A stretch of DNA of 64,000 nucleotides, taken from the NCBI RefSeq assembly GCF_021735925.1, contig NZ_WMEA01000001.1, positions 1,201,001-1,265,000 of the forward strand, given 5' to 3'. Source of the DNA: Loktanella sp. M215 (GTDB lineage: Bacteria; Pseudomonadota; Alphaproteobacteria; Rhodobacterales; Rhodobacteraceae). This document shows, piece after piece, positions 27,567 to 44,737 of this stretch. The translations under genes were made by a program, and so were the position numbers. The notes below the pieces were generated by a model, which did no database searches, had not been told where the DNA came from, and worked only from the letters and a program-made list of their open reading frames with translations. Within the stretch, counting starts at the first letter, position 1, and the number at the start of each line of letters is the position of its first letter.

Positions 27567-29999
<2,433 letters not shown>

Positions 30000-30004
30000 C
30001 GGGC
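30000..30004. repeat. Target site duplication CGGGC, left copy
   Basis: CGGGC directly follows the gyrB stop codon and precedes the terminal TGTAGG of the mobile element; the same five bases follow the right-end CCTACA at 36901-36905. Five-base duplications are the hallmark of Tn7/Tn5053/Mu-type transposition. Confidence 0.8.
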
Positions 30005-30033
30005 TGTAGGATCGCGCATAATCGTGCGCGATA

Positions 30034-30070
30034 CCCAAAAGGTTGCGCGATTTTCCTAAAGGTTTGCGCG
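30034..30070 (+). repeat. Left-end transposase-binding-like repeats
   Basis: Two near-identical 16-mers, CCCAAAAGGTTGCGCG (30034-30049) and CCTAAAGGTTTGCGCG (30055-30070), lie 21 bases apart start to start, about one to two helical turns. A hairpin ATCGCGCA-N6-TGCGCGAT (30011-30032) is between them and the end. The same motif occurs in inverted orientation at the right end. Confidence 0.75.
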
Positions 30071-30074
30071 GGCA

Positions 30075-31328
30075 ATGCCGATACCTATGAGATACCTGAG
30101 CATCAGACGCGAGATCGAAGGCAGCCTGCCCACCGTGGCGGAACTCCTTCGCCAGAAAGGTGAGCACGATGCCCTCCGCGCTATGAGCCAGGCGGATATC
30201 GAGATCGAGGAAGTTGGCTACGACAACTGGAACGGTGGCACCGAGCTCTGGACTGTCTTCCTTCGCGTCCCGGTCAGCGTTTTCGTATCGTTCGAGGACC
30301 GCCGGGACGAGATCGCCGGGATCATCTCGAAGAACCTCAAGGTCGTCGCGGGCCAGGACAATGGATACTGGGTGAGCGCGGCGATCTCGCCGATGCGTGC
30401 GCCGCCGCCGGATCGGCGCCTACCGAACGGGAAGATCGGCGAACGGACGCGCGCGGCCATCCTCGATGAGATGCGTGCCAGGGAAACTGTCTGGCACGGT
30501 GCCTTAAATGAAATCGCTTTCCTCAGCCGCATCTTTAATCTGACCTCCCTACCTTCTCATGACAGCCGGTTCCAGAACGCCCAGCAGGACATCTGGCAGC
30601 ACTGCATCAACAACTTCGACTGGCCACAGGACTGGGTCTACAGTGACCCGCGCTTACGTCTCTATGCTGCCGATGAGGATATCTTCCTGACGTTCATCTG
30701 CGAGGTTCTTCATCCCATCGTTCGCAAAGACGACTTGGAGCAGGACGCGCTCGCCAGGGCGTTCAATGGTCACCTACGGGCTGACGGGTGGGAGCTCGTC
30801 GAGGATGCCATCATCGATGGACGGCCGGCTTATGTGCCGCAACTCAAGGTTCACGCCTTGGGTGGATCGGTCCAGCGCATCAAGGCCGTCGCGGCTACCT
30901 TGAACTCGGACACGCTCTACGAGGATTTACGGCGCCTTGAGCGTATCGGCGACAGCGAGCCAGGCGAGGCGATCGCCTTGGCCAAGGAAATCGTAGAGAG
31001 CTGCTGCAAGCTGATCTTGGATGATCGGAGGGTAGAATATTCAGAAAAGGCGGAGATCCCCGAACTGCTGAAGCTCCTCCGCAATGAGATCAAGATCATG
31101 ACGGACGGGATCGACGAGAGCGCCAGAGGCGCGAATGAAATTATAGGTATTTTGACCAGCTTGGGGAATATCGCTCACTCTCTCGCTCCGTTGCGGAATG
31201 CATACGGCAAGGGCCATGGTCGCGGGCGAGAATTCAAGGGGCTTCAACCACGCCATGCCCGCCTTGCGATTGGGGCCGCCAGCACTTTCGTCGATTTCGT
31301 ATTGGATCGTCACCTGTCCCAAAGGTAG
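30075..31328 (+). CDS. Putative abortive-infection protein (AbiJ-like, Abi C-terminal domain)
   Basis: The 417-residue protein has a C-terminal region with the pattern of the abortive-infection C-terminus family: KLILDDRRVEYSEKAEIPEL, GILTSLGNIAHSLAPLRN, YGKGHGRG and PRHARLAIGAASTFVDFVLD. The middle (about residues 150-260) with DSRFQNAQQDIWQHCINNFD resembles an AbiJ N-terminal domain family. These families are linked to phage defence. It lies immediately inside the left end of the transposon, a common place for defence cargo. The start at 30075 is uncertain; ATG 30087 is an alternative. No ribosome-binding site is obvious. Mechanism is unknown. Confidence 0.7.
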   Translation: MPIPMRYLSIRREIEGSLPTVAELLRQKGEHDALRAMSQADIEIEEVGYDNWNGGTELWTVFLRVPVSVFVSFEDRRDEIAGIISKNLKVVAGQDNGYWVSAAISPMRAPPPDRRLPNGKIGERTRAAILDEMRARETVWHGALNEIAFLSRIFNLTSLPSHDSRFQNAQQDIWQHCINNFDWPQDWVYSDPRLRLYAADEDIFLTFICEVLHPIVRKDDLEQDALARAFNGHLRADGWELVEDAIIDGRPAYVPQLKVHALGGSVQRIKAVAATLNSDTLYEDLRRLERIGDSEPGEAIALAKEIVESCCKLILDDRRVEYSEKAEIPELLKLLRNEIKIMTDGIDESARGANEIIGILTSLGNIAHSLAPLRNAYGKGHGRGREFKGLQPRHARLAIGAASTFVDFVLDRHLSQR

Positions 31329-31506
31329 ACCGGAGTAGTCAGATCAACGTCCGTCCTATCTCGTAGTGAAACTACGGTTTGCATGTTCGATCTTATTATA
31401 GAAAGGGCGGTAAGCCGACCTTCGCTGCGCTTTGCGGCGAGATCCGGTGTGCGGACAAAGCGCGCTTTCGCTGAGGTTGCTATACGGCTGCTATTGCAAA
31501 TAACTT

Positions 31507-33558
31507 TCAATGAGCGACCGCTGCCATAATCCATTTCGGTGGTGCTGTGTGTGCAGGACGAATGTCTTTTACAACTTCAGCATCATGCCGCCGCAGAATC
31601 CGTGTAAGAATGCCATATGTCACAGCAAAAGCGCCTGCTGCCTGCGTAGAATTGTCGAGGCCCTGCGTGAACAGCATTCTGATCAGGATGTCGCGGTGAA
31701 CGTCGTCGAGGTCAGCGAAGGAAATCTGAATGAGGGTCTCATCCTGATTCTCGACATAGGCTGCGATCTGACCGAGTTTCGGGATATCGATGCGAAGCCA
31801 GCGAAAGTTGTAGCCGACGTCTTGCAGGTTTGGCAGACGCAGACCGGCACCAGAGACCGACAGCCATTCAAGCCGCGCGGTAACGTTTTGGTTCGGGCGT
31901 GTGCCGATGAAGCAGGGGATGTCGACGGGAAAATGCTCTGCTTCGTCCTGTGACGGTGCGGTCACTGCGGCGACCTGAACCACCGACAGGATAATCATGG
32001 TGACGATCCCCCAAAACGTCAGGAGTGGCATCTGGTCCGCCGACAGCACGATACGGGTATTGTAACTTGCATTCGCGACGAACCCCAAAGCGGTGATGAT
32101 GATCAGCGCGAGGGGTGCATAGATCATCAGACGGTCAACTGTTTGGCCTTGGGCTGCGCGGCCCTTTGGCGTGACCTTGAAGGCATGACCATGCGGCCGG
32201 ATCAGTGTTGTCACGATGGTCGGCAGAATCCGTGGCGCCTGCAAGGCTGCGGGCACGGTCGCCGCGAGTGGAAAGAAGCTTTTCGGGTCGAGCAGCCGCA
32301 GCGCAAGCAGCGTCGCGATGAGAGTTGGCACCTGGTAGTCGATCAACTCGACCGTCGGCGTCATCGGCAGCGGCGACCAGCCAGTCCACAGACAGATCGC
32401 CGGCACCACGAGCGAGGTGATCGTCATCACCGGCTGGATCATCCAGTGCAGCGGAAGAAACAGGATTCGGTGGTGCAGCTTGAGGTTCGGCCCGAATGGT
32501 CCGTCGCGCAGATAGAGGATCTGGATCGCACCACGGGCCCAGCGGGCGCGCTGCACATACATTGCGCTCAAGGATTCAGGTGCCAGGCCGACCGCCAGAC
32601 GCTCGTTCAGATAGCGGGTGACAAACCCGTGGCGGAGCATCGCCAGGGTCAGCAGCATGTCTTCGGTGATCGACCCCGTCGGCAAGCCGCCGCCCACGGC
32701 CTCGATGGCGCTGCGGCGGGTGACGGAGTTCGATCCGCAACAAAAGGCCGCATCCCAGCCATCGCGCCCTTCCATGATGGACCCGAAGAACATGCGCTGA
32801 TCGTCCGGCATTGCCTTGCGCATGCCCAGATTGATCTGCATCGGGTCGGCATTGTAGAAGCTGTGGGGGATCTGCACGATGCCGACGCGTGGATCGTCGA
32901 ACAGCCCCATCGCCCGGTAGAGAAAATTCTGCTGCGGCACGAAGTCCGCGTCCAGCACCATGAAATAGGTGCCATCGGTCCGGGCGATCCCGGCATTGAT
33001 GTTCCCGGCTTTGGCATGGGCGTTGTTGTCACGGGTAAAGTAGTCGGCACCCTTTCGTGCGCAGTAGTCGCGCAGCCAGTCGCGCTTGCCGTCATCCAGC
33101 ACACAGACGCGCAACCGGTCGCGTGGCCAATCAAGGGCCAAGGCACCCAGAATGGTCTTCTCCAGCACGTCGAGGTCTTCGTTGTAGGTCGCGATGAACA
33201 CATCGACAGTGGGCAGCTCAGCGGGGGCGGCCGCGCGCAGGGCCGCTTCGCCTGCATCGGCCAGCGCGGAATTGTCGCGCCGCCGGCACAGGGTAGCGAA
33301 CAGCACTGCGGTGTCGAACCAGACCGCCATCTCGATCAGAAACAGCGTCCACGCGAACAGGGTCTCTCCGATCCCCGAGGCAGGCCCCGGGAGTGTCGCT
33401 GTCACGCGCCAGTAAAGGTAGCGCAAGAGCACCAGTGTCACCGCGGCGAGCAGAGTCCAGACCGCGCCTTTGCGGACCCCGGGTCCGCTGAGCCACTGAC
33501 GGGGAGCCAACAAACCCGCCGCCACGACCAATGTCAGCGGGATCAGATACAGCGGCAT
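31507..33558 (-). CDS. GT2 cellulose-synthase-like glucan synthase (BgsA-like)
   Basis: The 683-residue inner-membrane protein has two N-terminal membrane segments with RYLYWRVTATLP, the GT2 catalytic core with IATYNEDLDVL, VLDADFVPQ (the DxD metal site), TEDMLLT and QRARWARG (QxxRW), then several membrane segments and a C-terminal soluble domain (from about residue 565) that could be a regulatory PilZ-like or BgsA-like domain. It makes a beta-glucan from UDP-glucose and extrudes it. It follows the HlyD-like gene by 1 bp, as in the bgsBA operon of Sinorhizobium meliloti, which makes c-di-GMP-activated mixed-linkage beta-glucan. Cellulose is the alternative, but no bcsB, bcsC or bcsZ is present. 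Confidence 0.82.
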   Translation of the reverse strand: MPLYLIPLTLVVAAGLLAPRQWLSGPGVRKGAVWTLLAAVTLVLLRYLYWRVTATLPGPASGIGETLFAWTLFLIEMAVWFDTAVLFATLCRRRDNSALADAGEAALRAAAPAELPTVDVFIATYNEDLDVLEKTILGALALDWPRDRLRVCVLDDGKRDWLRDYCARKGADYFTRDNNAHAKAGNINAGIARTDGTYFMVLDADFVPQQNFLYRAMGLFDDPRVGIVQIPHSFYNADPMQINLGMRKAMPDDQRMFFGSIMEGRDGWDAAFCCGSNSVTRRSAIEAVGGGLPTGSITEDMLLTLAMLRHGFVTRYLNERLAVGLAPESLSAMYVQRARWARGAIQILYLRDGPFGPNLKLHHRILFLPLHWMIQPVMTITSLVVPAICLWTGWSPLPMTPTVELIDYQVPTLIATLLALRLLDPKSFFPLAATVPAALQAPRILPTIVTTLIRPHGHAFKVTPKGRAAQGQTVDRLMIYAPLALIIITALGFVANASYNTRIVLSADQMPLLTFWGIVTMIILSVVQVAAVTAPSQDEAEHFPVDIPCFIGTRPNQNVTARLEWLSVSGAGLRLPNLQDVGYNFRWLRIDIPKLGQIAAYVENQDETLIQISFADLDDVHRDILIRMLFTQGLDNSTQAAGAFAVTYGILTRILRRHDAEVVKDIRPAHTAPPKWIMAAVAH

Positions 33559-33559
33559 C

Positions 33560-34849
33560 TCAGTTGACCGTCGTCGGGCTGTCGGAATCCTCCAGTTTGG
33601 CCGTCATCACCGGCGCGAAACCAGCCATATCCCGCAACGAAGAGACGAGGTTCGACACGGCAGAGATCGACTTCATCGCGAAATGCACTTCGGCCGAACG
33701 GCCGACATCACAAAAGGATCGCGCCACGCCGGGCGCAGACACGTCCGCACCGCCGATGCCGACGATCACGCGCAATCCGTCGGGTGTTTCGATCCGCGGC
33801 TGCGCAGCCTGCATCTTGCGGTTCGGCCGTGCGCCGCTGCCGTAGACGGCATAGACCACAGCCTTGAAGCGATCCTTATCACCTTTCAGCTGCACAGAGA
33901 CGTCGTCGCCGGGCCGGATGCTCTGGGTGTAAGTCTCGCTGATCATGACCTCCAGAAACCGGCGCGAACAGTCGAGCACCTGGGCAATCTGTTCGCCAGA
34001 CGCGACGTTTGTTCCGACTTGGCCAGACACCTCCCAGATGATGCCATCGGCCACCGACTTTGGAGAGAACGTGTCGTTGCGCGCCTTCTCGAGTTCGAGG
34101 CCAGAAATCTCACCCTGCAGCGCCGCACGGCGGGTCTGCAGCGTCAGCAGCCGCGTATAAAGATCGGCGTCCCGCAGGGCGATCTCGTCCAGCCGGTAAT
34201 TCAACTGTTCCAGGCTGTTCGTCGCAAGATCGATGCTGTCTGTGGTCTGAAGATAATCGCGTTCGACCTCAAGGCGGTTGACCGTTGCCACCTCATGGGC
34301 GTGCCGCGCTTGGGCCGCGGCCAGATCCGCTTCGGCCGCCAAGACATCACGTTTCGTGACGCTGCCTTTCCCTTCCAACTGTGCAATCCGAAGGGCGGCA
34401 TCCTGCGTCCGGCTGACCTCTGCCGCGGCGACAGCCACGTCGGCCTGCGCTTCTTCCAGACGCGGACCAAACCAGATCGTCTTGGCGTTCACCTGATCCG
34501 AACGTCGCTTGATCAGATCGGCCTTCAGGTCCTGCATGCGTCGCCGCTGGGTTTCGATGCCCGAGATTTCGCCTGATGTGGTCGCGATCTCGCTTCTAAG
34601 CGAGCGCAGGTTCACGCTCTGGCTGCGGGCATCCTTGATGACTGCGATCGTATCTCCCGCCAGAATTGGTGCCGCCGCTCCCAGACTGGCTGTCATGATC
34701 GTGCCATCAAAAGGCGCATAGACAGAAACGAGCGGCGCGTTCACGACAGCCGCCGACGAGATGTGATTGGTCATCTGCGGCGCGATTGCCACGCCGGCTG
34801 CAGCAAGCAGAACGAGCGCTGCAGGCACCCTCAACATGGACATCTGCAT
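33560..34849 (-). CDS. HlyD-like periplasmic adaptor of the glucan synthase (BgsB-like)
   Basis: The 429-residue protein has an N-terminal membrane anchor (MLRVPAALVLLAAAGVAIAP), a biotinyl-lipoyl-like half motif (VYAPFDGTIMTASLG and GIIWEVSGQVGTNVASGEQI), a long coiled-coil hairpin (about residues 75-265) and a beta-barrel end. These are features of membrane fusion proteins. Together with the GT2 gene 1 bp downstream it forms a two-gene operon that resembles bgsB-bgsA. It would guide the polysaccharide across the periplasm. The promoter must lie in 34850-35026, where I see no clear motif. Confidence 0.82.
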   Translation of the reverse strand: MQMSMLRVPAALVLLAAAGVAIAPQMTNHISSAAVVNAPLVSVYAPFDGTIMTASLGAAAPILAGDTIAVIKDARSQSVNLRSLRSEIATTSGEISGIETQRRRMQDLKADLIKRRSDQVNAKTIWFGPRLEEAQADVAVAAAEVSRTQDAALRIAQLEGKGSVTKRDVLAAEADLAAAQARHAHEVATVNRLEVERDYLQTTDSIDLATNSLEQLNYRLDEIALRDADLYTRLLTLQTRRAALQGEISGLELEKARNDTFSPKSVADGIIWEVSGQVGTNVASGEQIAQVLDCSRRFLEVMISETYTQSIRPGDDVSVQLKGDKDRFKAVVYAVYGSGARPNRKMQAAQPRIETPDGLRVIVGIGGADVSAPGVARSFCDVGRSAEVHFAMKSISAVSNLVSSLRDMAGFAPVMTAKLEDSDSPTTVN

Positions 34850-35056
34850 CCTACAGTTCTTCCTGAAGAGGTATCATACGAGCACACGCAAGTGAGCGAC
34901 CGCGTCTTAAAGGATGTGTCTTCGTCCAGACCAGATACATAACCATAAACCCAACTCAACCCAGAAGTGTCGAAGGTCTGGATAATTGGCAAACATGGCG
35001 CAAATAAGGTTAACGGGATTTCAACTTGAGCTGCTGCCGGTTTCGTGGACACCGGG

Positions 35057-36014
35057 TTAGGTTTGCATAGCTCGGTCCTCGAACGCCATAGGGCTGAGAT
35101 AGCCCAGCTTCGAATGCCGTCGCCTCGGATTGTAAAAGCGCTCGATGTAGTCGAACACGTCGGCGCGTGCCGCGTCACGGGTGCGGTAGACCTTGCGGGC
35201 TGTCCGTTCGATCTTCAGCGACGAGAAGAAGCTCTCCATTGCTGAGTTGTCCCACACATTGCCTGCACGGCTCACCCGGCAAATGATGCCGTTGTCCAGC
35301 AGCAGGCGCTGAAACTGCTCACTGGTATATTGCGATCCTTGGTCTGAGTGATGGAGCAGCGCGTCAGCCTTTCCGCGCCGCCAGACGGCCATCCGCTGCC
35401 CGGCAGTGGTTTGCAGGTCATTCCGGTGGAATGACTGGCAAACCATGAGAGGGATCAGCGCATCCATGACCAGTGAAGCATCCCGTTCCGCCTTCATGGA
35501 CCAGCCGACGGTGAGCCATTGATGCGCCATTGGTTCAAGCACAATGGCGAACCCTGGAGAACAGGTCCAGCACGACCGCCACGTAGAGCCAGCCCTCTGC
35601 GGTCCAGATGTAGGTGAAGTCGGCAAGCCACTTCTGGTTCGGCCGGTCTGCTGTGAAGTCGCGGTCAAGGATGTTGTCGGCGATGACCGACCGCTCGCCG
35701 TCATCCTTCGGGTTCCCGCGGCGTTTGGGCCGCGCTCTCATTGCATTTAGCCGCATCAAGCGTTCGATCCGGTGCAGTCCACATGCGAGACCTTCTTCCA
35801 GAACGTCACGCCAGACCCGGCGGGCGCCATAGGTGCGATCGCTGGCCTTGAAGCTCTTGTCGATCGACTGGACGAGCTTTGCATCCTGAGCCGCGCGTTC
35901 GCTTATCGGCCTTCTGAGCCAGGCATGAAAGCCGGATCGGGAGACGCCCAGCACCGCGCACATCCAGCTGACCGGCCAAATGTGCCGATGCTTTGCCACG
36001 TAAGCGAACGTCAT
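35057..36014 (-). pseudogene. IS3-family orfB (integrase-like transposase), frameshifted
   Basis: The N-terminal part is in one frame (36014-35535, with the first catalytic Asp in NQKWLADFTYIWTAEGW) and breaks after VVLDLFSR. The rest, with HSDQGSQYTSEQFQRLLLDN (second Asp) and NSAMESFFSSLKIERTARK (Glu) up to YNPRRRHSKLGYLSPM, is in another frame. The junction carries an insertion near 35530-35560, and a second, in-frame insertion of about 60 bp at 35408-35444 is a quasi-palindrome. The transposase should be inactive. The start overlaps orfA by 4 bp. Confidence 0.82.
35408..35444. repeat. Quasi-palindrome inside the IS3 orfB
   Basis: GGTTTGCAGGTCATTCC and GGAATGACTGGCAAACC flank a 3-base centre and pair with two mismatches. 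The palindrome lies in an insertion of about 20 codons that interrupts the otherwise conserved stretch between VMDAL and MAVWRRGKAD. It may be a small mobile repeat or the trace of a secondary insertion. Confidence 0.5.
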
Positions 36015-36303
36015 GTCGCTTCCCGCGCGAAGTAAGCTGCCGCCTTTTTTAGGATGTCACGCTCCGCCTTGAGCTTGGCGACCTCTCTCTTCAGGGTCGC
36101 AATCTCGGCCAATTCTGCGCGTTGCAAGCCATTGCCGGGAAACGCCGCAACAGGCGCTCCCATCAATTCCCGCATCCAGCGACGCGAGCCACGCTCTCCG
36201 CAAGATCCAGGTCCCGGCACGCCTGAGCGACCGCAACGCCTCGCTCGGTCACCAGCCTTACCGCCTCGATCTTGAACTCGCGGCTAAACTTCCGTCTCGT
36301 CAT
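36011..36303 (-). pseudogene. IS3-family orfA, frameshifted
   Basis: The reading frame starts MTRRKFSREFKIEAVRLVTE, a typical OrfA helix-turn-helix N-terminus, but after AESV it runs to a stop. The expected continuation, RRWMRELMGAPVAAFPGNG and the leucine-zipper-like LKREVAKLKAERDILKKAAA, follows in a shifted frame. A 1-base change (net) near 36180-36195 explains this. Confidence 0.82.
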
Positions 36304-36366
36304 ATCCACTCTCCAGTTCAATGGTCACGATCTTATCTTCGTGTCCACAAAACCGGCAGCAGCTCA

Positions 36367-36631
36367 GGGCCTGCTTTTTGCGACCAAGGGCAGGCGAAGT
36401 TCGTTCGACGTCTGGCAAATTACCGAGGATTCCGTCGCGAGATTTCGCCGGGAATTCCAAGTCGTCTCGGATTTGGCAAAGGAAGGGCAGACTACGTCCA
36501 GAAAGCTTCTTGCCACGCTTGCGAGTCACGGAATCACATCGGTTGGGTCGCAGCCCGCCGGCAAGTCATCGCGCGGGCATTTGATCCGAACCGGTGACAT
36601 CGCCCAGCTGATGAGAGTTTTGCCAATCTAA
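36367..36631 (+). pseudogene. Truncated gene 3' fragment next to the IS3 element
   Basis: An open frame runs out of the right inverted repeat and ends with TAA at 36629-36631, giving about 87 residues (including SSFDVWQITEDSVARFRREF and the end RGHLIRTGDIAQLMRVLPI) of a protein whose 5' part is missing. It has no recognisable domain. Its position near the right end of the transposon is where transposition genes are often found, so it could be the remainder of a tni/tns-type gene, but this is unproven. Confidence 0.55.
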
Positions 36632-36776
36632 CCAAAGCCCGTCGTCGGGCGCTATCTACATGAAAGCCGCCAAGGGATGCCTTGGCGGCTTCTGGCTTTT
36701 CTACTGGCTGGACGCCGAGCCGGATTTCACGTAATAAAAATCAGGCAATTCGCTGGCTTCTGGCGGCGAGGTTGGT
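36632..36776. other. Non-coding stretch with a strong hairpin
   Basis: This stretch lies between the truncated gene and the right-end repeats and carries no gene. It holds a perfect 11-bp stem (AGCCGCCAAGG / CCTTGGCGGCT, 36665-36690) with a 4-base loop and a moderate T-rich tail (TTCTGGCTTTTCT). It may be the terminator of the truncated gene. Confidence 0.6.
36665..36690 (+). terminator. Intrinsic terminator-like hairpin after the truncated gene
   Basis: An 11-bp perfect GC-rich stem with a GATG loop is followed by TCTGGCTTTTCT. It lies 33 bp after the stop of the gene fragment on the same strand. Confidence 0.6.
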
Positions 36777-36836
36777 GCGCAAGACTATTCGCTAAACGCG
36801 CAAGACTTTGGGCGAATACCGCGCAGACCTTTGGGC
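36777..36836 (-). repeat. Right-end transposase-binding-like repeats
   Basis: On the minus strand three related motifs follow each other: CCCAAAGGTCTGCGCG (36820-36835), CCCAAAGTCTTGCGCG (36797-36812) and GCGAATAGTCTTGCGC (36777-36792). Their spacing is about 20-23 bases. They mirror the left-end repeats in inverted orientation. Confidence 0.75.
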
Positions 36837-36900
36837 GCAGCAAAGTGATTTTCATAAATGAAATCAATGAGGGGTGCGCGTGGTTACGTAGCAACCTACA

Positions 36901-36905
36901 CGGGC
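36901..36905. repeat. Target site duplication CGGGC, right copy
   Basis: CGGGC follows the terminal CCTACA and is identical to the five bases at 30000-30004. Joining the two flanks restores the gyrB stop codon followed by a hairpin (CTGCCG-TATC-CGGCAG). Confidence 0.8.
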
Positions 36906-36920
36906 TGCCGTATCCGGCAG
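36905..36920. terminator. Hairpin between gyrB and tRNA-Val, separated from gyrB by the transposon
   Basis: CTGCCG and CGGCAG form a 6-bp stem with a 4-base loop. Before the insertion it would have been 5 bp after the gyrB stop and about 43 bp after tRNA-Val on the other strand, so it could have served both convergent genes. It lacks a T-run, so termination is only a guess. Confidence 0.4.
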
Positions 36921-36962
36921 TCACCCAAAATCGAGACTGCCCCTCGCTGCGTCACTGGAAGA

Positions 36963-37038
36963 TGGTGGGTGGTGAGGGGCTCGAACCCCCGACATTTTCG
37001 GTGTAAACGAAACGCTCTACCAACTGAGCTAACCACCC
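36963..37038 (-). tRNA. tRNA-Val (anticodon TAC)
   Basis: The minus strand folds into a complete 76-base cloverleaf including an encoded CCA: acceptor stem GGGTGGT / ACCACCC, D-loop AGTTGGTA, anticodon stem TTTCG / CGAAA with loop TTTACAC (anticodon TAC, reads GTA/GTG valine codons), and T-loop TTCGAGC with stem GGGGG / CCCCT. It is the closest gene to the right end of the mobile element (62 bp). Confidence 0.97.
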
Positions 37039-37067
37039 GCAGGCGCCGATCTAGCGCCAAACGGGGG

Positions 37068-37643
37068 CTAGCGCAACTCCTCCATCCGCCCGCGCGACAG
37101 GTGAAACACGTTGCCCTGTCCGCCCTGCAGATCGGTCCAGGCGGCGGTGTCCAGACCCAGTGCCGCACAGCGCAGCATGCGGCTGACGATGCCGTGGCAG
37201 ACAACGACGGCGGGGCCGTCCAGATCATCGAGGAACGCCCGCGCCCGGGCTGTAACGGCTGCCAGCCCTTCGCCGGGGGCCCGCGCGTACAGGCTCAGAT
37301 CGCCGTCGGGGCCGGGGCGGGGGGCGTCCGGATCGGGGGGCGAAAGCTCCGCGCGGAGCCGCCCTTGCCAGTCGCCCACGTCGATCTCGCGCAGGCGGTC
37401 GTCGGTCCGGACCTCCACGGCGATTTCGGCCAGCGCCAGCCCCGCCGTCTCGACCGCCCGCATCAGCGGCGAGGTCCAGAAGCCGAACCCCGTCAGATCG
37501 CGCCCCTGCAACACCTGCCCCTGACGCCGGGCCTGATCGCGGCCAAGTTCTGTCAGCGGCGCGTTCAGATGCCCCTGCATCCGCCCCGCGCGGTTCCAGA
37601 CCGTCTCGCCGTGGCGCAGGATATAAAGGTCGGGATAGGCCAT
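37068..37643 (-). CDS. Histidine phosphatase family protein
   Basis: The 191-residue protein starts MAYPDLYILRHGETVWNRAG with the phosphoglycerate-mutase-like RHGE motif, continues with SPLMRAVETAGLALA and has the second catalytic His in VVVCHGIVSRML. These are the marks of the histidine phosphatase superfamily (branch 1). The substrate is not evident (phosphoglycerate mutase, phosphosugar or nucleotide phosphatase are possible). The start at 37643 gives the usual N-terminus. Confidence 0.88.
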   Translation of the reverse strand: MAYPDLYILRHGETVWNRAGRMQGHLNAPLTELGRDQARRQGQVLQGRDLTGFGFWTSPLMRAVETAGLALAEIAVEVRTDDRLREIDVGDWQGRLRAELSPPDPDAPRPGPDGDLSLYARAPGEGLAAVTARARAFLDDLDGPAVVVCHGIVSRMLRCAALGLDTAAWTDLQGGQGNVFHLSRGRMEELR

Positions 37644-37778
37644 GCGAACGCGTTCCTGCTGAAATTTGCGACATCCGGCAGGCCCTGACCCACCGCCGGG
37701 GCGAAAGCCACCCGCCCGCACTTGCGATCCCGCAAACCACATGCAGCATGGTCGATACACCCCAGACCGGAGATACCG

Positions 37779-38684
37779 ATGCACCGCCTGCCTGTCCACG
37801 CTGCCTGCACGATCCTGACCCTGTCGCTGGCCGGCCCGCTAAGCGCTCAGGACGCGACGCACCGCACCGCCATTATCTCGGCCTTTCCGCCGGAAATCGC
37901 GGCGCTGCAGGACGGGCTGACCGACACGGCGACGCAGACGCTGAACGGGGTCAGCTTCACGACCGGGCAACTGGCGGGTCAGCAGGTCGTGATGTTCATG
38001 TCCGGCGTCAGCATGGTGAATGCCGCCATGACGACGCAACTGGCCTTGGATCACTTCACCATCGACCGGATCCTGTTTTCCGGCATCGCCGGGGGGGTCG
38101 ATCCCGATCTGGCCATCGGTGACGTGGTGATTCCCGGCCAGTGGGGGCAATACCTGCAGGGCGTCGCCGCGCGCGACACTGACGGCGCCTTTGCCATGCC
38201 ACCCTGGATGACCAGCGCATTTCCCAATTTCGGCATGACCTTCACCGTTCCCTTCGGCGTCATGGCCGACGGGCTGAGCGAGCCAGACATGAGCTTCTGG
38301 TTCCCCGTCGATCCCGATCTGCTGACGCTGGCGCAGACCGTTGCCGCCGACGTCGCCCTGTCCGATTGCACGCCGGATCAGGCCTGCCTGACCAAGGCGC
38401 CCAAGATCGTGGTCGGCGGCAACGGCGTCTCGGGTCCGATGTTCGTCGACAACGCCGCCCTGCGGCAGCACGCCTTCGCCACCTTCGATGCACAGGTGCT
38501 GGACATGGAAAGCGCCGCCGTCGCACAGGTCGCCTTTGCCAACGGCACCCCCTTCATCGCCTTCCGGTCGCTGTCCGACCTCGCGGGCGGGGGCGAGGGG
38601 GCCAACGAGATGGGCACCTTCATGGCGCTGGCCGCCACGAATGCCGCCACCGTCATCCGGGCCGTTGTGGCAGCACTGGACTAG
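37779..38684 (+). CDS. Exported 5'-methylthioadenosine/S-adenosylhomocysteine nucleosidase-like protein
   Basis: The 301-residue protein has a clear signal peptide (MHRLPVHAACTILTLSLAGP, cleavage after LSAQ) and then a phosphorylase/nucleosidase superfamily (PNP_UDP_1) domain: AIISAFPPEIAALQDGL, SGIAGGVDPDLAIGDVVIP and the C-terminal LDMESAAVAQVAFANGTPFI. In MTA/SAH nucleosidases the ME pair and a Ser/Asp near the end bind the nucleoside. Those enzymes are normally cytoplasmic; an exported form is unusual and may scavenge nucleosides in the periplasm. GGAG lies upstream of the ATG. Confidence 0.85.
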   Translation: MHRLPVHAACTILTLSLAGPLSAQDATHRTAIISAFPPEIAALQDGLTDTATQTLNGVSFTTGQLAGQQVVMFMSGVSMVNAAMTTQLALDHFTIDRILFSGIAGGVDPDLAIGDVVIPGQWGQYLQGVAARDTDGAFAMPPWMTSAFPNFGMTFTVPFGVMADGLSEPDMSFWFPVDPDLLTLAQTVAADVALSDCTPDQACLTKAPKIVVGGNGVSGPMFVDNAALRQHAFATFDAQVLDMESAAVAQVAFANGTPFIAFRSLSDLAGGGEGANEMGTFMALAATNAATVIRAVVAALD

Positions 38685-38695
38685 GGCTGCCGCGT

Positions 38696-40093
38696 CTAGC
38701 GATAGTTGATGTCGACCCGGTCGAAGGCGCCTGCCGCGTGATCCTGACGGAACATCTTGTGATCCCGGTGCAGGCGCTTTGCGGCCTCCTTGGTCCAGCG
38801 CTGGATATCGGCCACGAACAGCTTGCGCGGGCTGGCAGCGGCAAGGATCGACGGTTCCACATCGTAATCGACCTGCCCCAGATCGTCTGACAGCGCATGG
38901 GCCTGTGCCAGTGCCGCCCCGCAAACGCGCGCATACTTGCGCCACGTCTTGTCCGACAGATCGTCCAGATCGATGTCATCGCGAAATGGTGCGCGTTCAC
39001 GGCTCATATAGCTGTCGCCGTCGATGGTGACGGCACCATAGAACACATCGCCATGCGCCAGCTGCACCTTCTGCCCGTGCGCGATCCGGTCCGCCCGGTC
39101 GCCCGCGTGAAACTCCGTCGGCGGCGTCAGCCCCTGCAGGGCAGAGGTCCGCGCCCGCTTGAACTCCACGATCATGTCGTCGGTCGCGTCCTGCGACGGC
39201 CCCTCCAGCAGCACGTAATAGCGCGGCAGCCCGAGAGACGCCGTCCCCTGACCGTGCCGCACGCAGACGTCCTTCACCTTCAGCTCGGGGCTGCGGTCCG
39301 GCACGTCCAGATCGTTGGCCTTGGCCAGATCATAGATCGCCTGCTGGAACTTTTCGATCTCGCCGCTGATCGGCTGCAATTCGTCGTCGGCCCGGAACCC
39401 CTTGCCGCTGGGCTTCAGGTAATCGCCCCAAAGCCAGTCCTTCCGGTCCTCCCAGGCCTGCGCAAACAGGCGGCGGATCACCTTGGGCGAATTGTCCTGC
39501 CGGTAGTTGTCGTTCTTCTCGGTCGCGTGGCGGGCGTAATCCTTCATCGCGCGCAGATAGCCTTTGACGAAATGCTTCACGATGCGCTTGCGCTGCCTTT
39601 TCTTCGCACCCGCGACCTGTTCCGCCGCGATCCAGAACCCCACGGCCCCGCGCTTGATGTCCCAGGTAAAGGGCGCATACAGCACCTCGTCGAAATCATT
39701 GACGCCAAAGATAGGCACGTTGTGCGCGTCGGGCATCACGCCGAAATTCTCGGGGTGGACGTCACCCAGCGCAAGCACCGTCGGCATCGCCGGATCCTCG
39801 CCCGCCATGTCGCGGTAGAACAGCAGGGCCGTGCCGCGAAAGAACTTGAAGACGTCCTTGGACAGGGTGTCGAACTTATCCCGCGTGCCGCTGGCCTGCT
39901 GCTCGATCCGGGTGGCGTGGTCTTCGCGCAGTGTCCTGCGGATGTGTTCGCGCCGCGCCTGACCGGTCAGCAGCACGGGCGGGATCAGCCGCTCGCCAGA
40001 CGACATGGCCTGCGACAGGGCTTCGAATTGCGCGACACGGGGTTCGGCCTTGCTGGCCCCGTCCGGCAGGCGGTTCTCGGTCGTCTTGGCCAT
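38696..40093 (-). CDS. DUF2252 family protein (kinase-like fold)
   Basis: The 465-residue protein has the DUF2252 motifs FRGTALLFYRDMAG, ALGDVHPENFGVM, FGVNDFDEVLYAPFTWDIKR and, near the end, QAHALSDD. The GDxHxxNFG and DFD elements resemble the catalytic loops of aminoglycoside-phosphotransferase-like kinases. The function is not established. It is convergent with the nucleosidase-like gene (11 bp apart) and downstream of crtC (34 bp) on the same strand. Confidence 0.88.
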   Translation of the reverse strand: MAKTTENRLPDGASKAEPRVAQFEALSQAMSSGERLIPPVLLTGQARREHIRRTLREDHATRIEQQASGTRDKFDTLSKDVFKFFRGTALLFYRDMAGEDPAMPTVLALGDVHPENFGVMPDAHNVPIFGVNDFDEVLYAPFTWDIKRGAVGFWIAAEQVAGAKKRQRKRIVKHFVKGYLRAMKDYARHATEKNDNYRQDNSPKVIRRLFAQAWEDRKDWLWGDYLKPSGKGFRADDELQPISGEIEKFQQAIYDLAKANDLDVPDRSPELKVKDVCVRHGQGTASLGLPRYYVLLEGPSQDATDDMIVEFKRARTSALQGLTPPTEFHAGDRADRIAHGQKVQLAHGDVFYGAVTIDGDSYMSRERAPFRDDIDLDDLSDKTWRKYARVCGAALAQAHALSDDLGQVDYDVEPSILAAASPRKLFVADIQRWTKEAAKRLHRDHKMFRQDHAAGAFDRVDINYR

Positions 40094-40127
40094 GCGCGCC
40101 CCCTTTGATCTGCAGCAGGGTCAAACG

Positions 40128-41153
40128 TCAGCCGTCCCTGCGCGGTTCCGACCAGCCGGGCCGTCGGGGCACGCGGAACGCCAGCATCGGCTTCAACAAG
40201 GGATTGCGGAACCGGGTCAGGTCCAGCGCCTCGTGCACGCCCGTCACCGTCTCGCCGTTCAGCTGCGTCCGCACGGCAGAGCGGCTGTAGAACGGCGCAT
40301 CCAGCATCCCCAGCACCTGTTGCGGCACCGTCCCCGGATCGGCCCGCGTCTCTCGTTTCACCTGCCACAGCGATCGCTTGAACGCGGTGCGCGGCGGTGC
40401 CTCCGCAGGCTGGGCGGACCCGTCGGGACCAAAGGCGATGGCGGTGTCGAACCGGCTGCCGTCGCGCCGCACCGCGTCGTAGAAACAGGTGGCCCCCGCC
40501 GCCGTCGGATACCGCCCCCAGGTCCAGAAATCGAAATCATCCTCCAGCGCGCGGGTGCCGAAGTTGGCGTCGAAATAGCCATGCCCCGACCACTGCCAGC
40601 CCTCCGCCTCCAGCGCCACGGTGATGTCGCTGATCGGCGAAAAGGGTCGCCAGACATGCCCGCCGTCCGCCGCCAGCGGCAGTTCCACCCCCGTGATCGC
40701 CCGCGGCGTCACCGTGATCGTGCCGCGCACGCGCGCGATCACCGGCGGGCCACTGACCTCGTCGATGGTGATGACCAGCGACTGCCCGTCCCAGTGCATC
40801 TGCGACGGGCCGACGCGCAGCGTGTCCCGCGTCGTCGACAGCGCCGCGCGGCCCCGGTCGGTCATCGTGAAGCGCCCGCCGGGGCCATAGGTCGCCACGT
40901 TGATGCAGCAATGGTTCGCCGGATCGCGCCGCCCTGACCACGCGTACCACGGGCTGAACACCGACCCGATGAACCCTATGACGGAAACGGCTTTTTGCCC
41001 GTCTTCGCTGATCCCGTCGACATACCACCACGCGTATCCGCCTGCCGGGACGTCAAGGTTGAAGCATGGTCGCTCAGCATCATCGCGACCGCATGCCGGG
41101 CGGAGAGTGTGGCCATCGGCACGCCCGCCCCCGGATGCGTCCCCCCGCCGCAC
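40128..41153 (-). CDS. crtC: CrtC, acyclic carotenoid 1,2-hydratase (hydroxyneurosporene synthase)
   Basis: CrtC adds water to neurosporene or spheroidene precursors in spheroidenone-type carotenoid synthesis. The protein has VPAGGYAWWYVDGISEDGQK, IGSVFSPWYAWSGRRDPANH and CCINVATYGPGGRFTMTDRG in order, the family pattern. No ATG is in frame upstream of this conserved block; the nearest usual start is GTG at 41151-41153, which gives 341 residues and about 178 bp of overlap with crtD. A shorter protein with a rare start is possible. It follows crtD in one operon. Confidence 0.88.
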   Translation of the reverse strand: MRRGDASGGGRADGHTLRPACGRDDAERPCFNLDVPAGGYAWWYVDGISEDGQKAVSVIGFIGSVFSPWYAWSGRRDPANHCCINVATYGPGGRFTMTDRGRAALSTTRDTLRVGPSQMHWDGQSLVITIDEVSGPPVIARVRGTITVTPRAITGVELPLAADGGHVWRPFSPISDITVALEAEGWQWSGHGYFDANFGTRALEDDFDFWTWGRYPTAAGATCFYDAVRRDGSRFDTAIAFGPDGSAQPAEAPPRTAFKRSLWQVKRETRADPGTVPQQVLGMLDAPFYSRSAVRTQLNGETVTGVHEALDLTRFRNPLLKPMLAFRVPRRPGWSEPRRDG

Positions 41154-42517
41154 AGATACAGACCCGTCACCGCCGTCCGTGCCGTCGGCCGCTGCAAGGC
41201 CGCCGTCAGCCCCTGCGGGGATCGCCCGTAAAGGGATCCTCTGCTGCCGGGAAACAGCCGGGCAAAGTCCCCCGGCCCGGTCAGTGTCACCGGGCCGGGG
41301 GAAAAGTGCAGGCCGAACTGCCGCAGGCGGTCGAACATCAGTGTCTGACATGAAAAATCCTCTGGTGTCGGGCGCTCGCCCAGCGGGGCGGCATTGCGAA
41401 TGATCTCGAACCGCTGCAGCGCGCCGGGGGCGGCGTCATGGTCCTGCGCACAGATGTAAAGCGTGGCGTCCTGCGGCACAGCGCCCGTGGCGATGGCGGC
41501 GAACTCCGCCTCTGCGTCGTCCGCGAAAAAGACCGTGTGATGCGCCAGCGGCACCCCCTCCGGCACGGCGGCAAAGCTCGCGACATGCGCCGACAGGCTG
41601 CGCGGCATCACCGCAGCCTCGGCCACGGCGGCCTTGGGCGCAGGTCCCAGCAGACCGGCCTGCAGCGCCGCCGGATCGCCATTGAACAGCACCATGTCGG
41701 CGGGCACGAACCCCGTCTCCGTATCCACGCCGCTGACCTTGCCGCCCTGCTTGACGATCCGCCGCACAGGTGTCGCGTAGCGAAACGTCGCGCCGAACCC
41801 TTCGGCCAGCCGCGACAGCGTCAAAGCCAGCGCATGCATCCCGCCATCCACCGTCCAGACGCCGCGCGCCTCCGCCTCCCAGATCAGGGACAGCAGGGCA
41901 GGGGAGGCGCCGGGACTGCCGCCGACATAGGTGGCATAGCGCGCAAAAAGCTGCGCCAGACGGGGCTCTCGGAACGACGACGCGACAAGCCCCGCCAGCG
42001 TCTTGTGCGGCGCCATGTCCAGCGCCAGCCGCGGCTGCCTGATCACCCGCCGGACCAGATCGGCCTGCGACGGTTGCGCGGCCTGCATCATCGGCACCTC
42101 GAAGGCCGCGAAAAGCCGCGCCGCCCGCGCGCTGAAGCGGCGAAAATCGTCGGCACTGCCATCACCGAAGACCTGCGCGATCCGCGCGGCGCTGTCGCCC
42201 GCATCGGCCATCAGGTCCAGCGTCGCGCCATCGGGCCAGTAATGCCGCGCCAACGTGTCCAGCGGGCGCAGCGTCAGATGATCCTCCGGCCGCAGGCCCA
42301 CATCTGCGAACAGTGCGTCGAAGACGGGCCGCAGTGTCAGCACCGTCGGCCCCGCATCGACCGGCCCGGCCTCCGTCGCCAGGGTCCGCATCTTGCCGCC
42401 GGGGGTGGCCTGCGCCTCGATCACCGTGACGGCACAGCCCGCGTGCGCCAACAGCATGGCCGCCGCCAGCCCGCCGATCCCGGCCCCCACGATCACAACC
42501 TTGGCCTGCGTCTCCAT
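40976..42517 (-). CDS. crtD: CrtD, methoxyneurosporene dehydrogenase
   Basis: CrtD inserts the 3,4-double bond in acyclic carotenoids. The 513-residue FAD enzyme has the dinucleotide-binding start VVIVGAGIGGLAAAMLLAHA, the following VIEAQATPGGKMRTL, and the CrtI-type C-terminal signature GLYLCGGGTHPGAGVPMA. GAAGGAGAGG precedes the ATG. It is divergent from crtE over a 105-bp region with two PpsR-type boxes and overlaps crtC. Confidence 0.95.
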   Translation of the reverse strand: METQAKVVIVGAGIGGLAAAMLLAHAGCAVTVIEAQATPGGKMRTLATEAGPVDAGPTVLTLRPVFDALFADVGLRPEDHLTLRPLDTLARHYWPDGATLDLMADAGDSAARIAQVFGDGSADDFRRFSARAARLFAAFEVPMMQAAQPSQADLVRRVIRQPRLALDMAPHKTLAGLVASSFREPRLAQLFARYATYVGGSPGASPALLSLIWEAEARGVWTVDGGMHALALTLSRLAEGFGATFRYATPVRRIVKQGGKVSGVDTETGFVPADMVLFNGDPAALQAGLLGPAPKAAVAEAAVMPRSLSAHVASFAAVPEGVPLAHHTVFFADDAEAEFAAIATGAVPQDATLYICAQDHDAAPGALQRFEIIRNAAPLGERPTPEDFSCQTLMFDRLRQFGLHFSPGPVTLTGPGDFARLFPGSRGSLYGRSPQGLTAALQRPTARTAVTGLYLCGGGTHPGAGVPMATLSARHAVAMMLSDHASTLTSRQADTRGGMSTGSAKTGKKPFPS

Positions 42518-42560
42518 CGCGCCTCTCCTTCAACCCGACTGTTGACTCGGAATCCAAATG

Positions 42561-42578
42561 TGTCCAGTCTAGTTTACA
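42561..42578. promoter_or_regulatory. PpsR/CrtJ box 1 between crtD and crtE
   Basis: TGTCCAGTCTAGTTTACA is a perfect TGT-N12-ACA motif, the consensus of the PpsR/CrtJ repressor that shuts photosynthesis genes under oxygen and light. It pairs with a second box 6 bp away. Confidence 0.8.
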
Positions 42579-42584
42579 TTGCGG

Positions 42585-42602
42585 TGTCTAATTTAGATTA
42601 CA
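42585..42602. promoter_or_regulatory. PpsR/CrtJ box 2 between crtD and crtE
   Basis: TGTCTAATTTAGATTACA is a second perfect TGT-N12-ACA motif and is strongly palindromic (CTAATTTAG centre). It lies 21 bp upstream of the crtE start. Tandem boxes allow cooperative repressor binding and could control both crtDC and crtEF. Confidence 0.85.
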
Positions 42603-42622
42603 GTTATCAAAGGATGTGGCCG

Positions 42623-43498
42623 ATGCGCCTGTCAGACCGGATCGACGCCGCCGTGGCCATGGCCATCCACTCCGGCCAGCGTGGCCCTGCGCCCTCTCGC
42701 CTGTCAGCTGCCTTGCACTACGCCGTCACACCCGGCGGCGCGCGCATCCGGCCCACGATCCTGCTGTCCGTCGCCATGGCCTGCGGCGACGACCGCCCGG
42801 CGCTGGCCGACGCGGCCGCCGCGGCGCTGGAGGTCATTCACTGCGCCAGCCTCGTCCACGACGACCTGCCCTGTTTCGACGACGCCGACACCCGCCGCGG
42901 CAAGCCCGCGCTGCACCGCGCCTTTTCCGAACCGCTGGCCGTTCTGACCGGCGACAGCCTGATCGTCATGGGCTTTCAGGTGCTGGCCCGCGCCGCTGCC
43001 CTTGCCCCCGACCGCGCCGTGGCGCTCATCGACGTGCTGGCCACCCGCACCGGCATGCCCTTTGGCATCTGCGCCGGGCAGGGGTGGGAATCCGAGGATC
43101 AGATCGACCTCGCCGCCTACCACCGGTCCAAGACCGGCGCGCTCTTCATCGCCGCGACCCAGATGGGCGCCATCGCCGCCGGTCAGGCTGGCGAACCCTG
43201 GGCCGAACTCGGTGACCGCATCGGAGAAGCCTTTCAAGTGGCCGACGACCTGCGCGACGCGCTGTGCGACGCAACCGAATTGGGCAAGCCCGCCGGTCAG
43301 GACGACCTGCACGGCCGCCCCAACGCCGTGGCGCGGCTTGGAATTCACGGCGCCGTCGCGCGCTTCGACGACATGCTGGCCGGTGCGATCTCCTCCATCC
43401 CCGCCTGCCCCGGCGAGGCGGCGCTTGCCCAGATGGTCCGCGCCTACGCCGACCGCCTCGTGCCTGCCGTGGCGCGCAGCGCCGTGCCGGGCGAATGA
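42623..43498 (+). CDS. crtE: CrtE, geranylgeranyl diphosphate synthase
   Basis: CrtE makes the C20 precursor of carotenoids and of the bacteriochlorophyll tail. The 291-residue prenyltransferase has the first Asp-rich motif HCASLVHDDLPCFDDADTRR and the second one at QVADDLRDALCD. AAAGGA lies 8 bases before ATG 42623; an earlier ATG at 42614 is part of that ribosome-binding site and is less likely. The stop overlaps the crtF start (ATGA). Confidence 0.95.
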   Translation: MRLSDRIDAAVAMAIHSGQRGPAPSRLSAALHYAVTPGGARIRPTILLSVAMACGDDRPALADAAAAALEVIHCASLVHDDLPCFDDADTRRGKPALHRAFSEPLAVLTGDSLIVMGFQVLARAAALAPDRAVALIDVLATRTGMPFGICAGQGWESEDQIDLAAYHRSKTGALFIAATQMGAIAAGQAGEPWAELGDRIGEAFQVADDLRDALCDATELGKPAGQDDLHGRPNAVARLGIHGAVARFDDMLAGAISSIPACPGEAALAQMVRAYADRLVPAVARSAVPGE

Positions 43499-44631
43499 CG
43501 GCGACCGCCGATCTGATGTCGCGCAGCCCGCGCCCCGGCCTGCGCCAACGCGTGTTGCGCCTGATCGCAGACCCCGCCTTTCAGGCCCGCGCCGCCCGGA
43601 TTCCTCTGTTGCGCCGCATCGTCAGATCCGAAGGCGAGGCGATGTTCGACCTCGTCGCAGGCTTCTGCCACAGCCAGGTCCTGCTCGCCCTCGTGCGCCT
43701 CGACTTGCCCGCGCAGCTGCTCGACTCACCTGCCGCGACCGCGACCCTCGCCGCCCGCAGCCGTATCCCGCTCGACCGGATGACGGTCCTGCTGAACGCC
43801 GCCGCCTCCCTCGGCCTGCTGCGCCGGTCGCGCGACCTGTGGTCCCTGACCACCCGCGGTGCGGCGCTCGCCGGCGTGCCCGGCCTGCAAGGCATGATCG
43901 CCCACCACGATGTCCTCTACCGCGACCTCACCGACCCGGTCGCCTTTTTCCGGGGCGAGGTCGAGACTGAACTCGCCGCCTTCTGGCCCTACGTTTTCGG
44001 CGCGGGTGGTGCGACCGATCCTGATGTCACCGCGACCTATTCCGCCCTGATGGCCGACAGCCAGCGCCTCGTCGCCGCCGACACGATCGCGGCCATCGAC
44101 TGGTCCGCCAGCCGCCGCGTCATGGACGTCGGCGGCGGGACCGGCGCCTTCCTGACAGCCCTCGGCACGGCGCAGCCGCATCTGCACCTGACGCTGTTCG
44201 ATCTGCCCGCCGTGGCCCCCGCCGCCACCGACCGATTCGCCGCCGATGGCCTCACGGACCGCAGCACCATCGTCACCGGATCGTTCCGCGACGATTCACT
44301 GCCCGCAGGCGCCGACACGATCACTCTCGTCCGCGTGCTCTATGACCACGCCGGCGATACGGTCCTGGCCCTGCTGCGCGCGGCCCACGCGGCATTGCCG
44401 CCGGGCGGTCGGCTGGTCATTTCCGAACCCATGACGGGCGGGTCCGCGCCTGCGCGCGCGGGCGACGCCTACTTCGCGCTCTACTGCATGGCGATGCGCA
44501 CCGGGCGCGCCCGTTCCGCTGCACAGATCACGGCCCTGCTGGGCCAGGCCGGCTTCACGCAAGCCGTCACCGCCCCGGCCCCGGCCCGCCCCTTCGTCAC
44601 CTCTGTTCTGACGACTGTAAGGCTAGATTGA
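43495..44631 (+). CDS. crtF: CrtF, hydroxyneurosporene O-methyltransferase
   Basis: CrtF methylates the 1-hydroxyl of acyclic carotenoids with SAM. The 378-residue protein has an N-terminal dimerisation/winged-helix part and the methyltransferase core with VMDVGGGTGAFLTALGTAQP, LFDLPAVAPAA and the class-typical LPPGGRLVISEPM. The start overlaps crtE by 4 bp. The last codons overlap the first PpsR-type box of the bchC promoter (44616-44633). Confidence 0.94.
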   Translation: MTATADLMSRSPRPGLRQRVLRLIADPAFQARAARIPLLRRIVRSEGEAMFDLVAGFCHSQVLLALVRLDLPAQLLDSPAATATLAARSRIPLDRMTVLLNAAASLGLLRRSRDLWSLTTRGAALAGVPGLQGMIAHHDVLYRDLTDPVAFFRGEVETELAAFWPYVFGAGGATDPDVTATYSALMADSQRLVAADTIAAIDWSASRRVMDVGGGTGAFLTALGTAQPHLHLTLFDLPAVAPAATDRFAADGLTDRSTIVTGSFRDDSLPAGADTITLVRVLYDHAGDTVLALLRAAHAALPPGGRLVISEPMTGGSAPARAGDAYFALYCMAMRTGRARSAAQITALLGQAGFTQAVTAPAPARPFVTSVLTTVRLD

Positions 44632-44633
44632 CA
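44616..44633. promoter_or_regulatory. PpsR/CrtJ box 1 upstream of bchC
   Basis: TGTAAGGCTAGATTGACA is a perfect TGT-N12-ACA motif that overlaps the crtF stop codon. It pairs with the box at 44641-44658, 7 bp away. Confidence 0.85.
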
Positions 44634-44640
44634 CATAAGG

Positions 44641-44658
44641 TGTCTAAATAGGTTGACA
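44641..44658. promoter_or_regulatory. PpsR/CrtJ box 2 upstream of bchC, overlapping the -35
   Basis: TGTCTAAATAGGTTGACA is a perfect TGT-N12-ACA motif. Its last six bases, TTGACA (44653-44658), are a consensus -35 element with TAAAGT (44675-44680) as -10 at 16-base spacing. A bound repressor would thus block the bchC promoter directly, as known for bchC of Rhodobacter. Confidence 0.85.
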
Positions 44659-44680
44659 CATTGGCGCGTCTCGCTAAAGT
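44653..44680 (+). promoter_or_regulatory. Sigma-70-type promoter of bchC
   Basis: TTGACA (44653-44658) and TAAAGT (44675-44680), 16 bases apart, lie 58 bp upstream of the bchC ATG. The -35 is inside the second PpsR-type box. Confidence 0.7.
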
Positions 44681-44737
44681 TGATGTTACCGGGACGCGAC
44701 ACATCGCACTCCACGTCCTCAGGAGGAGGATCGCACC

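Follow-up and report, generated by a model that had tools for sequence, protein, structure and literature searches.

A probable relic of a Tn7-like transposon behind gyrB in Loktanella sp. M215, with the gyrB 3' end as its likely attachment site

The 64,000-nucleotide stretch of the Loktanella sp. M215 genome analysed here (contig NZ_WMEA01000001.1, positions 1,201,001 to 1,265,000; hereafter the window) holds, directly downstream of gyrB, an element at positions 30005-36900 that starts with TGTAGG and finishes with CCTACA, as read directly in the window sequence. This element is very probably what is left of a Rhodobacteraceae transposon of the Tn7-like kind that attaches at the gyrB 3' end, and is itself non-autonomous. 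As far as the literature searched shows, the type of transposon is known but its use of the gyrB tail as an attachment site is new. A Tn7-type transposon at this place, positioned by its nearness to a conserved gene, had been proposed from the window alone (the original prediction), and the recurrence of such ends 5 bp past the gyrB stop codon in other genomes bears this out.

A left-end pattern that contained no gyrB sequence found 24 loci in the genome contig collection. In 19 of these the end lay exactly 5 bp past a gyrB stop codon and in one it lay at 4 bp; two more were gyrB-linked, namely L045, which follows another element in tandem behind gyrB, and L037, where a right end lies some 5 kb away from a gyrB 3' end and the left end is gone. 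A second pattern consisted of the gyrB tail, any five bases and TGTAGG. Allowed up to 3 mismatches, it hit 96 of the 394 family genomes and gave 0 matches in the reversed control. Exact TGTAGG at this position was present in 35 of the 394 genomes, nearly all of different genera, compared with about 0.1 expected for a fixed hexamer. Over all 98 matches, hexamers with 0, 1, 2 and 3 mismatches numbered 35, 18, 14 and 31, and where the gyrB part was perfect they numbered 16, 9, 7 and 31, as against 1:18:135:540 for random sequence. At least one 16-bp box of the kind found at the window element's ends stood behind the hexamer in 9 of 12 exact TGTAGG loci examined (the 12 of the 35 genomes for which loci were retrieved) vs 2 of 18 other gyrB ends. 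Both the 24 loci and the 394-genome search thus show the fixed place beside a conserved gene that is typical of Tn7-like elements.

The duplicated five bases differ among most insertions, so the insertion place is not read from them. They form perfect duplications in five of the seven elements for which both ends were read (G000, the window genome; G239; G444; G452; and G050, with CGGTT on both sides). Codon positions 1 and 2 of the gyrB tail are mostly invariant among 22 carriers, as expected from protein conservation alone. In the complete elements read, the left-type end faces gyrB. Two elements stand in tandem behind gyrB in Leisingera (G448; CCTACA-CGGT-TGTAGG), and in Mameliella (G452, L095 near 18516-18566) a second TGTAGG follows right after the duplication (CCTACA-GTTTT-TGTAGG). 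These arrangements suggest that an occupied gyrB site can be hit again.

In the window, the predicted TGTAGG and CCTACA ends and the CGGGC on either side were all found in place. The four inverted 16-mers of the original prediction lie at 30034-30049 and 30055-30070 on the forward strand and at 36797-36812 and 36820-36835 on the reverse strand. With up to 3 mismatches the word CCCAAAGGTTTGCGCG had 5 matches in the window vs 0.97 expected, a count that none of 100 shuffles reached, and four of the five matches are boxes at the element ends; the variant word CCCATAAGTTTGCGCG had 3 matches, a count reached by 3 shuffles. The 16-mers are therefore non-random. Two further boxes had been overlooked: a position-weight scan added CGCATAATCGTGCGCG at 30015-30030 and CGAATAGTCTTGCGCA at 36776-36791 on the reverse strand. 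Each end then has three boxes, with spacings of 19 and 21 bp on the left and of 21 and 23 bp on the right. A layout similar to the left one is seen in most of the 24 pattern-found left-end loci. In relatives, the right end consists of a terminal box, then a gap, then three boxes, and positions 36875-36890 of the window correspond, by eye, to that further terminal box. Repeated boxes at both TGT...ACA ends and a 5-bp duplication are both Tn7-like traits. When the flanks are joined without the element they read TTTCTGACGGGCTGCCGTATCCGGCAGTCACCC, which is the gyrB stop followed by a short hairpin, as had been predicted. The left end is single in its own genome at up to 3 mismatches, and so is the right-end stretch, bar a 28-base partial match inside the same stretch. 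The G+C content is 0.595 for the element and 0.655 for the rest of the window.

The search for intact relatives used a left-end pattern of 28 bases (up to 3 mismatches), which matched 7 of the 394 family genomes and nothing in the control. One of the seven, Pseudooceanicola onchidii XY-99 (G239), has a complete 27.7-kb element, read as gyrB stop, GGCCT, TGTAGG ... CCTACA, GGCCT. Near its right end and reading toward it lie tnsA, tnsB, tnsC and tniQ/tnsD. They encode a TnsA-like nuclease (NCBIfam 6.9e-10, Pfam 8.3e-4), a DDE-type transposase, TnsB (IS481 model 7.1e-8, Mu-transpos_C 7.5e-4), a TniB-type ATPase, TnsC (3e-15, over the curated cut-off), and a TniQ protein of 599 aa (TniQ 5.6e-9, over the curated cut-off) with a helix-turn-helix domain near its C-terminus (8.5e-9). 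In four elements D257, D339 and E375 of TnsB and D97 and E111-x-K113 of TnsA are invariant, residues that we take to be catalytic; the Leisingera TnsB, which contains one stop, was excluded from the TnsB alignment. Further gyrB-linked elements with tns genes are those of Primorskyibacter flagellatus CGMCC 1.12664, Roseovarius spongiae and Mameliella sp. MMSF_3455, and a degraded one is present in Leisingera aquimarina. The check proposed earlier, a search for tni or tns genes between ends like these in the same position, succeeded: P. onchidii, P. flagellatus, R. spongiae and Mameliella carry tnsA, tnsB, tnsC and tniQ/tnsD inside elements whose left end lies 5 bp past the gyrB stop. A TnsD profile found 5 of the 394 family genomes, and in four of them (G000, G239, G345 and G405) the match lies at gyrB with TGTAGG at stop+5; clear right ends of the G345 and G405 elements were looked for and none was found. 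The same profile, at E up to 1e-20, found the window genome only among 385 genomes of the class. No TnsD was detected in 72,556 plasmid records (E up to 1e-10) and no left-end pattern in viral contigs. TnsB searches of 27 genomes gave any match in 13 and a strong one in 5, those with the tns-carrying elements named above, with none in the window genome or in Loktanella atrilutea (G001). A 139-aa reading frame of P. onchidii (L033:10600-11019, reverse strand), which overlaps the tnsD end, falls into no known family of Pfam or NCBIfam. It has counterparts in P. flagellatus (83%), G405 (39%) and, weakly, G139 (26%), and is possibly an accessory transposition factor.

The original prediction had left the family between Tn7-like and Tn5053-like. 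For a transposon of the Tn5053/Tn402 type, with tniABQ, no tnsA and movement through a co-integrate, speak the TGT/ACA ends, the 5-bp duplication and the match of the relatives' TnsC to Pfam TniB. The relatives, however, have a nuclease resembling TnsA in which D and ExK are conserved (family scores below cut-off), and the site is a chromosomal gene tail, whereas Tn5053 inserts at resolvase sites (PMC11406308, as far as its text was available). We consider this type very improbable and reject membership in it: the element is Tn7-like and not Tn5053-like because its relatives carry tnsA.

A site chosen by a CRISPR guide, as in some CRISPR-associated transposons (CASTs), is likewise highly unlikely. 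It would agree with the nearest sequences in the PDB, which are TnsB of the type I-F3 CAST Tn6677 (1.6e-22) and, for TnsC, that of V. cholerae (8.4e-13), the TniQ matches being weak. Against it, no CRISPR-like repeat arrays (20-mers) were found in the six stretches scanned, Cas proteins not having been searched exhaustively, and the TnsD proteins are long (583-612 aa), that of P. onchidii carrying the helix-turn-helix domain mentioned above.

Of the tns genes the window copy keeps only the C-terminus of TnsD and so lacks the full set. This remnant aligns to positions 505-588 of the TnsD profile (E 5.8e-32); it has no Pfam, NCBIfam or PADLOC match, and a search with the remnant as query returned no related loci. 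No TnsB match was found in the window genome, and the TnsD profile found only the remnant there; a working tns operon elsewhere in this genome is therefore rejected. The missing tnsB match might fit a miniature element that lacked tns genes from the start and simply acquired cargo, a very slim prospect which is refuted by the remnant: a TnsD C-terminus in place by the right end matches the intact elements.

The relic reading is also borne on by the cargo and the insertion sequence (IS) of the window copy. Its AbiJ gene, whole or in part, stands near the left end at gyrB in four other genomes: in Mameliella (87% DNA identity over 1275 bases), in Roseivivax halodurans (91% over 830 bases including the gyrB end, reaching near the contig end), in a metagenome-assembled genome (L047, 85% over 330) and, as the tail only, in Poseidonocella (83% over 264). 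On the right side, likeness to the Mameliella and Roseovarius elements starts at 36365, which is the IS edge (36366). The IS3-family element occurs eight times at full length in this genome (100% identity, rounded; the window copy counted), which suggests a recent expansion. The window copy has no 3-bp duplication, and three of the eight copies checked have one; because four of the seven other copies checked likewise have none, the missing duplication is weak evidence for an IS-mediated deletion and counts somewhat against our account. From these sequences we infer that tnsA, tnsB, tnsC and most of tnsD were lost by a deletion ending at the IS. With both ends intact and the tns genes gone, the window copy could at most be moved in trans.

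Within the genus, L. atrilutea has the same left end at gyrB stop+5 with other cargo. In G002 (L026 near 1636) TGTAGG at stop+5 stands without boxes and is followed by a reductase-like reading frame (by eye); it is probably the scar of a lost element. In G004 and G005 (L010, L011) TGTCGG at the same position opens an inverted repeat resembling the terminal hairpin of the transposon, which could be a decayed end or the gyrB terminator. Behind gyrB of G003, G006, G007 and G008 nothing end-like was seen. The original prediction had named gyrB or tRNA-Val as the attachment site, and only gyrB stands. That tRNA-Val is the site and gyrB the bystander is scarcely conceivable, and as a general rule it is refuted: the gene lies 57 bp past the right duplication, tRNA genes are common Tn7-like sites (available text of PMC11406308) and a degenerate cousin sits beside tRNA-Lys in G120, but 20 of the 24 pattern-found ends are 4-5 bp from a gyrB stop, the right flank in P. 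onchidii is a hairpin and a coding gene (the gene by eye) in the sequence read, and the 1.5 kb downstream of gyrB are free of tRNA genes in all eight other genus members. There the tRNA-Val stretch matches elsewhere, in six with the neighbouring gene and in G007 as the tRNA alone, with a weak match only in G008. We therefore treat tRNA-Val as a bystander.

Several observations weigh against gyrB as the attachment site of a Tn7-like element. The exact empty site (gyrB stop, CGGGC, hairpin, tRNA), whose search had been proposed as a check, was not found in relatives: the downstream flank is not conserved behind gyrB, and the window genus has it elsewhere. Likewise, when the joined flanks of P. 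onchidii were compared with 22 genomes of its genus (itself included), the gyrB half was present in 21 and the downstream half in P. onchidii only. No gyrB is seen at L038 and L050, which are among the 24 pattern loci. Of the seven elements, two have imperfect duplications: P. flagellatus (G458) has GTGTA/GTGTG, and in Leisingera the first element has TCGGT on one side but just CGGT ahead of the following end. For TnsA and TnsB the family scores stay below the curated cut-offs. In G437 what looks like a right-type end faces gyrB, so that orientation may not be strict. Finally, the fifth genome found with the TnsD profile, G120, has degenerate tns genes beside tRNA-Lys, yet TGTAGG also stands behind its gyrB.

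In G437 (L172) the stretch directly behind gyrB resembles a right end, having a gap with TTGATTTCATT, as if an element had been inverted or partly deleted. In G120 (C1 at about 36800-45040; L121, L122) pieces of tnsB, tnsC and tnsD lie near end-like boxes a few bases past tRNA-Lys (by eye), and this degenerate cousin suggests a switch of attachment site within the lineage.

We propose that in intact relatives a TniQ/TnsD-type protein would bind to conserved coding sequence of gyrB immediately before the stop codon. Recognition of gyrB by TnsD is put forward by analogy, since the TnsD of Tn7 binds glmS at the end of its coding region (available text of PMC2918618). Bound TnsD would then recruit the TnsC ATPase and the TnsA+TnsB transposase, which presumably moves the element by cut-and-paste and would join its ends to a 5-bp stagger that begins immediately past the gyrB stop. 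In this way gyrB would be kept whole and five base pairs of any sequence duplicated. In the window copy, an IS-bordered deletion would later have removed tnsA, tnsB, tnsC and most of tnsD.

Features of the window element and its flanks (positions are those of the window)
Feature	Position	Strand	Details
gyrB	27582..29999	+	left whole by the insertion; Pfam gyrase B domains; stop TGA 29997-29999
Left target-site duplication	30000..30004		CGGGC, directly after the gyrB stop
Left transposon end	30005..30070	+	TGTAGG terminus 30005-30010; three 16-bp boxes 30015-30030, 30034-30049, 30055-30070
AbiJ_NTD3 + Abi_C protein, 417 aa	30075..31328	+	Pfam 5.8e-54 and 3.1e-21; PADLOC AbiJ 1.5e-9
GT2 glycosyltransferase resembling bacterial cellulose synthase	31507..33558	-	NCBIfam CelA 6.6e-122, under that model's cut-off
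HlyD-type membrane-fusion protein	33560..34849	-	Pfam HlyD_3 4.5e-15
IS3-family insertion sequence	35027..36366	-	26-bp inverted ends; at the breakpoint where tns genes are missing
tniQ/tnsD C-terminal remnant	36367..36631	+	42% identity over 83 aa, E 1e-21, to P. onchidii TnsD
Right transposon end	36776..36900	-	boxes 36776-36791, 36797-36812, 36820-36835, gap, degenerate terminal box ~36875-36890, CCTACA 36895-36900
Right target-site duplication	36901..36905		CGGGC
tRNA-Val (tac)	36963..37038	-	bystander; 57 bp beyond the right duplication

In elements of this group the cargo is placed between the gyrB-side end and the tns genes. The AbiJ-type cargo of the window is probably an abortive-infection defence gene. 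The glycosyltransferase and HlyD pair was looked for in the eight other genus members; G002 has it at 73% identity in a different place, and the others gave no matches or short or weak ones. A survey of 83 cargo proteins, made up of the three window cargo genes and 80 picked manually from 164 called open reading frames (for the most part long ones, with tns genes and probable antisense frames set aside), showed many defence genes behind the gyrB-side end (L024:3061-4768, L036:1988-8714, L034 and L093 among the loci). These include type I restriction systems, YgjP-like metallopeptidases (4), AbiJ_NTD3 proteins (2, one of them from the window) and HamA (1).

The gene parE is a paralogue of gyrB. 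Known Tn7-like sites include glmS, yhiN, comM, tRNA genes and parE, the last being read by TniQ in the type I-F3 CAST Tn7017 (EasCAST), according to the available text of PMC11406308. That text has no mention of gyrB; the main texts of PMC10293859 and PMC8649781, as far as available, contain no word with 'gyr', the accessible part of PMC3478194 does not contain gyrB, and in that of PMC12452197 it is a phylogenetic marker. No description of a gyrB attachment site was found in the literature searched, which was mainly open-access. We consider it likely that the gyrB 3' end is a family-wide site of the attTn7 type in Rhodobacteraceae, that the TnsD branch reading gyrB evolved apart from the I-F3 TniQ reading parE, and that repeated insertion and tandem stacking have made the site a standing entry port for defence cargo. 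If so, repeated insertion at the gyrB tail would explain species differences in the sequence downstream of gyrB, and the site, at the end of a gene both universal and essential, would mark a predictable spot in which to look for what these transposons carry, frequently defence genes, across a marine family that is abundant. Together with the parE-targeting CASTs these elements would form a natural pair of topoisomerase-gene readers, in which to test how TniQ/TnsD proteins change target genes. The intact elements, with their short, defined ends, are candidates for site-specific insertion tools.

In comparison with known systems, the element shares a TniB-type ATPase, TniQ and the 5-bp duplication with Tn5053/Tn402, and differs from them in the tnsA of its relatives and in a chromosomal gene-tail target instead of res sites. 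Its likeness to Tn7 lies in the TGT/ACA ends with repeat arrays, the 5-bp duplication, the set of TnsA, TnsB, TnsC and TniQ/TnsD in relatives, and insertion just downstream of an essential gene that is left intact. In Tn7 tnsA adjoins the transposon end, whereas here the tnsABCD genes are read toward the far end, tnsD being the last or the last but one; the site is gyrB instead of attTn7 at glmS, and the window copy is without the tns genes. From Tn7017 (EasCAST) it differs in using gyrB instead of parE and in the absence of a CRISPR-like array from the six stretches; the two are alike in that a TniQ-family protein directs insertion beside a topoisomerase gene in Tn7017 and would do so here, with TnsB and TnsC here nearest to the I-F3 machinery in the PDB.

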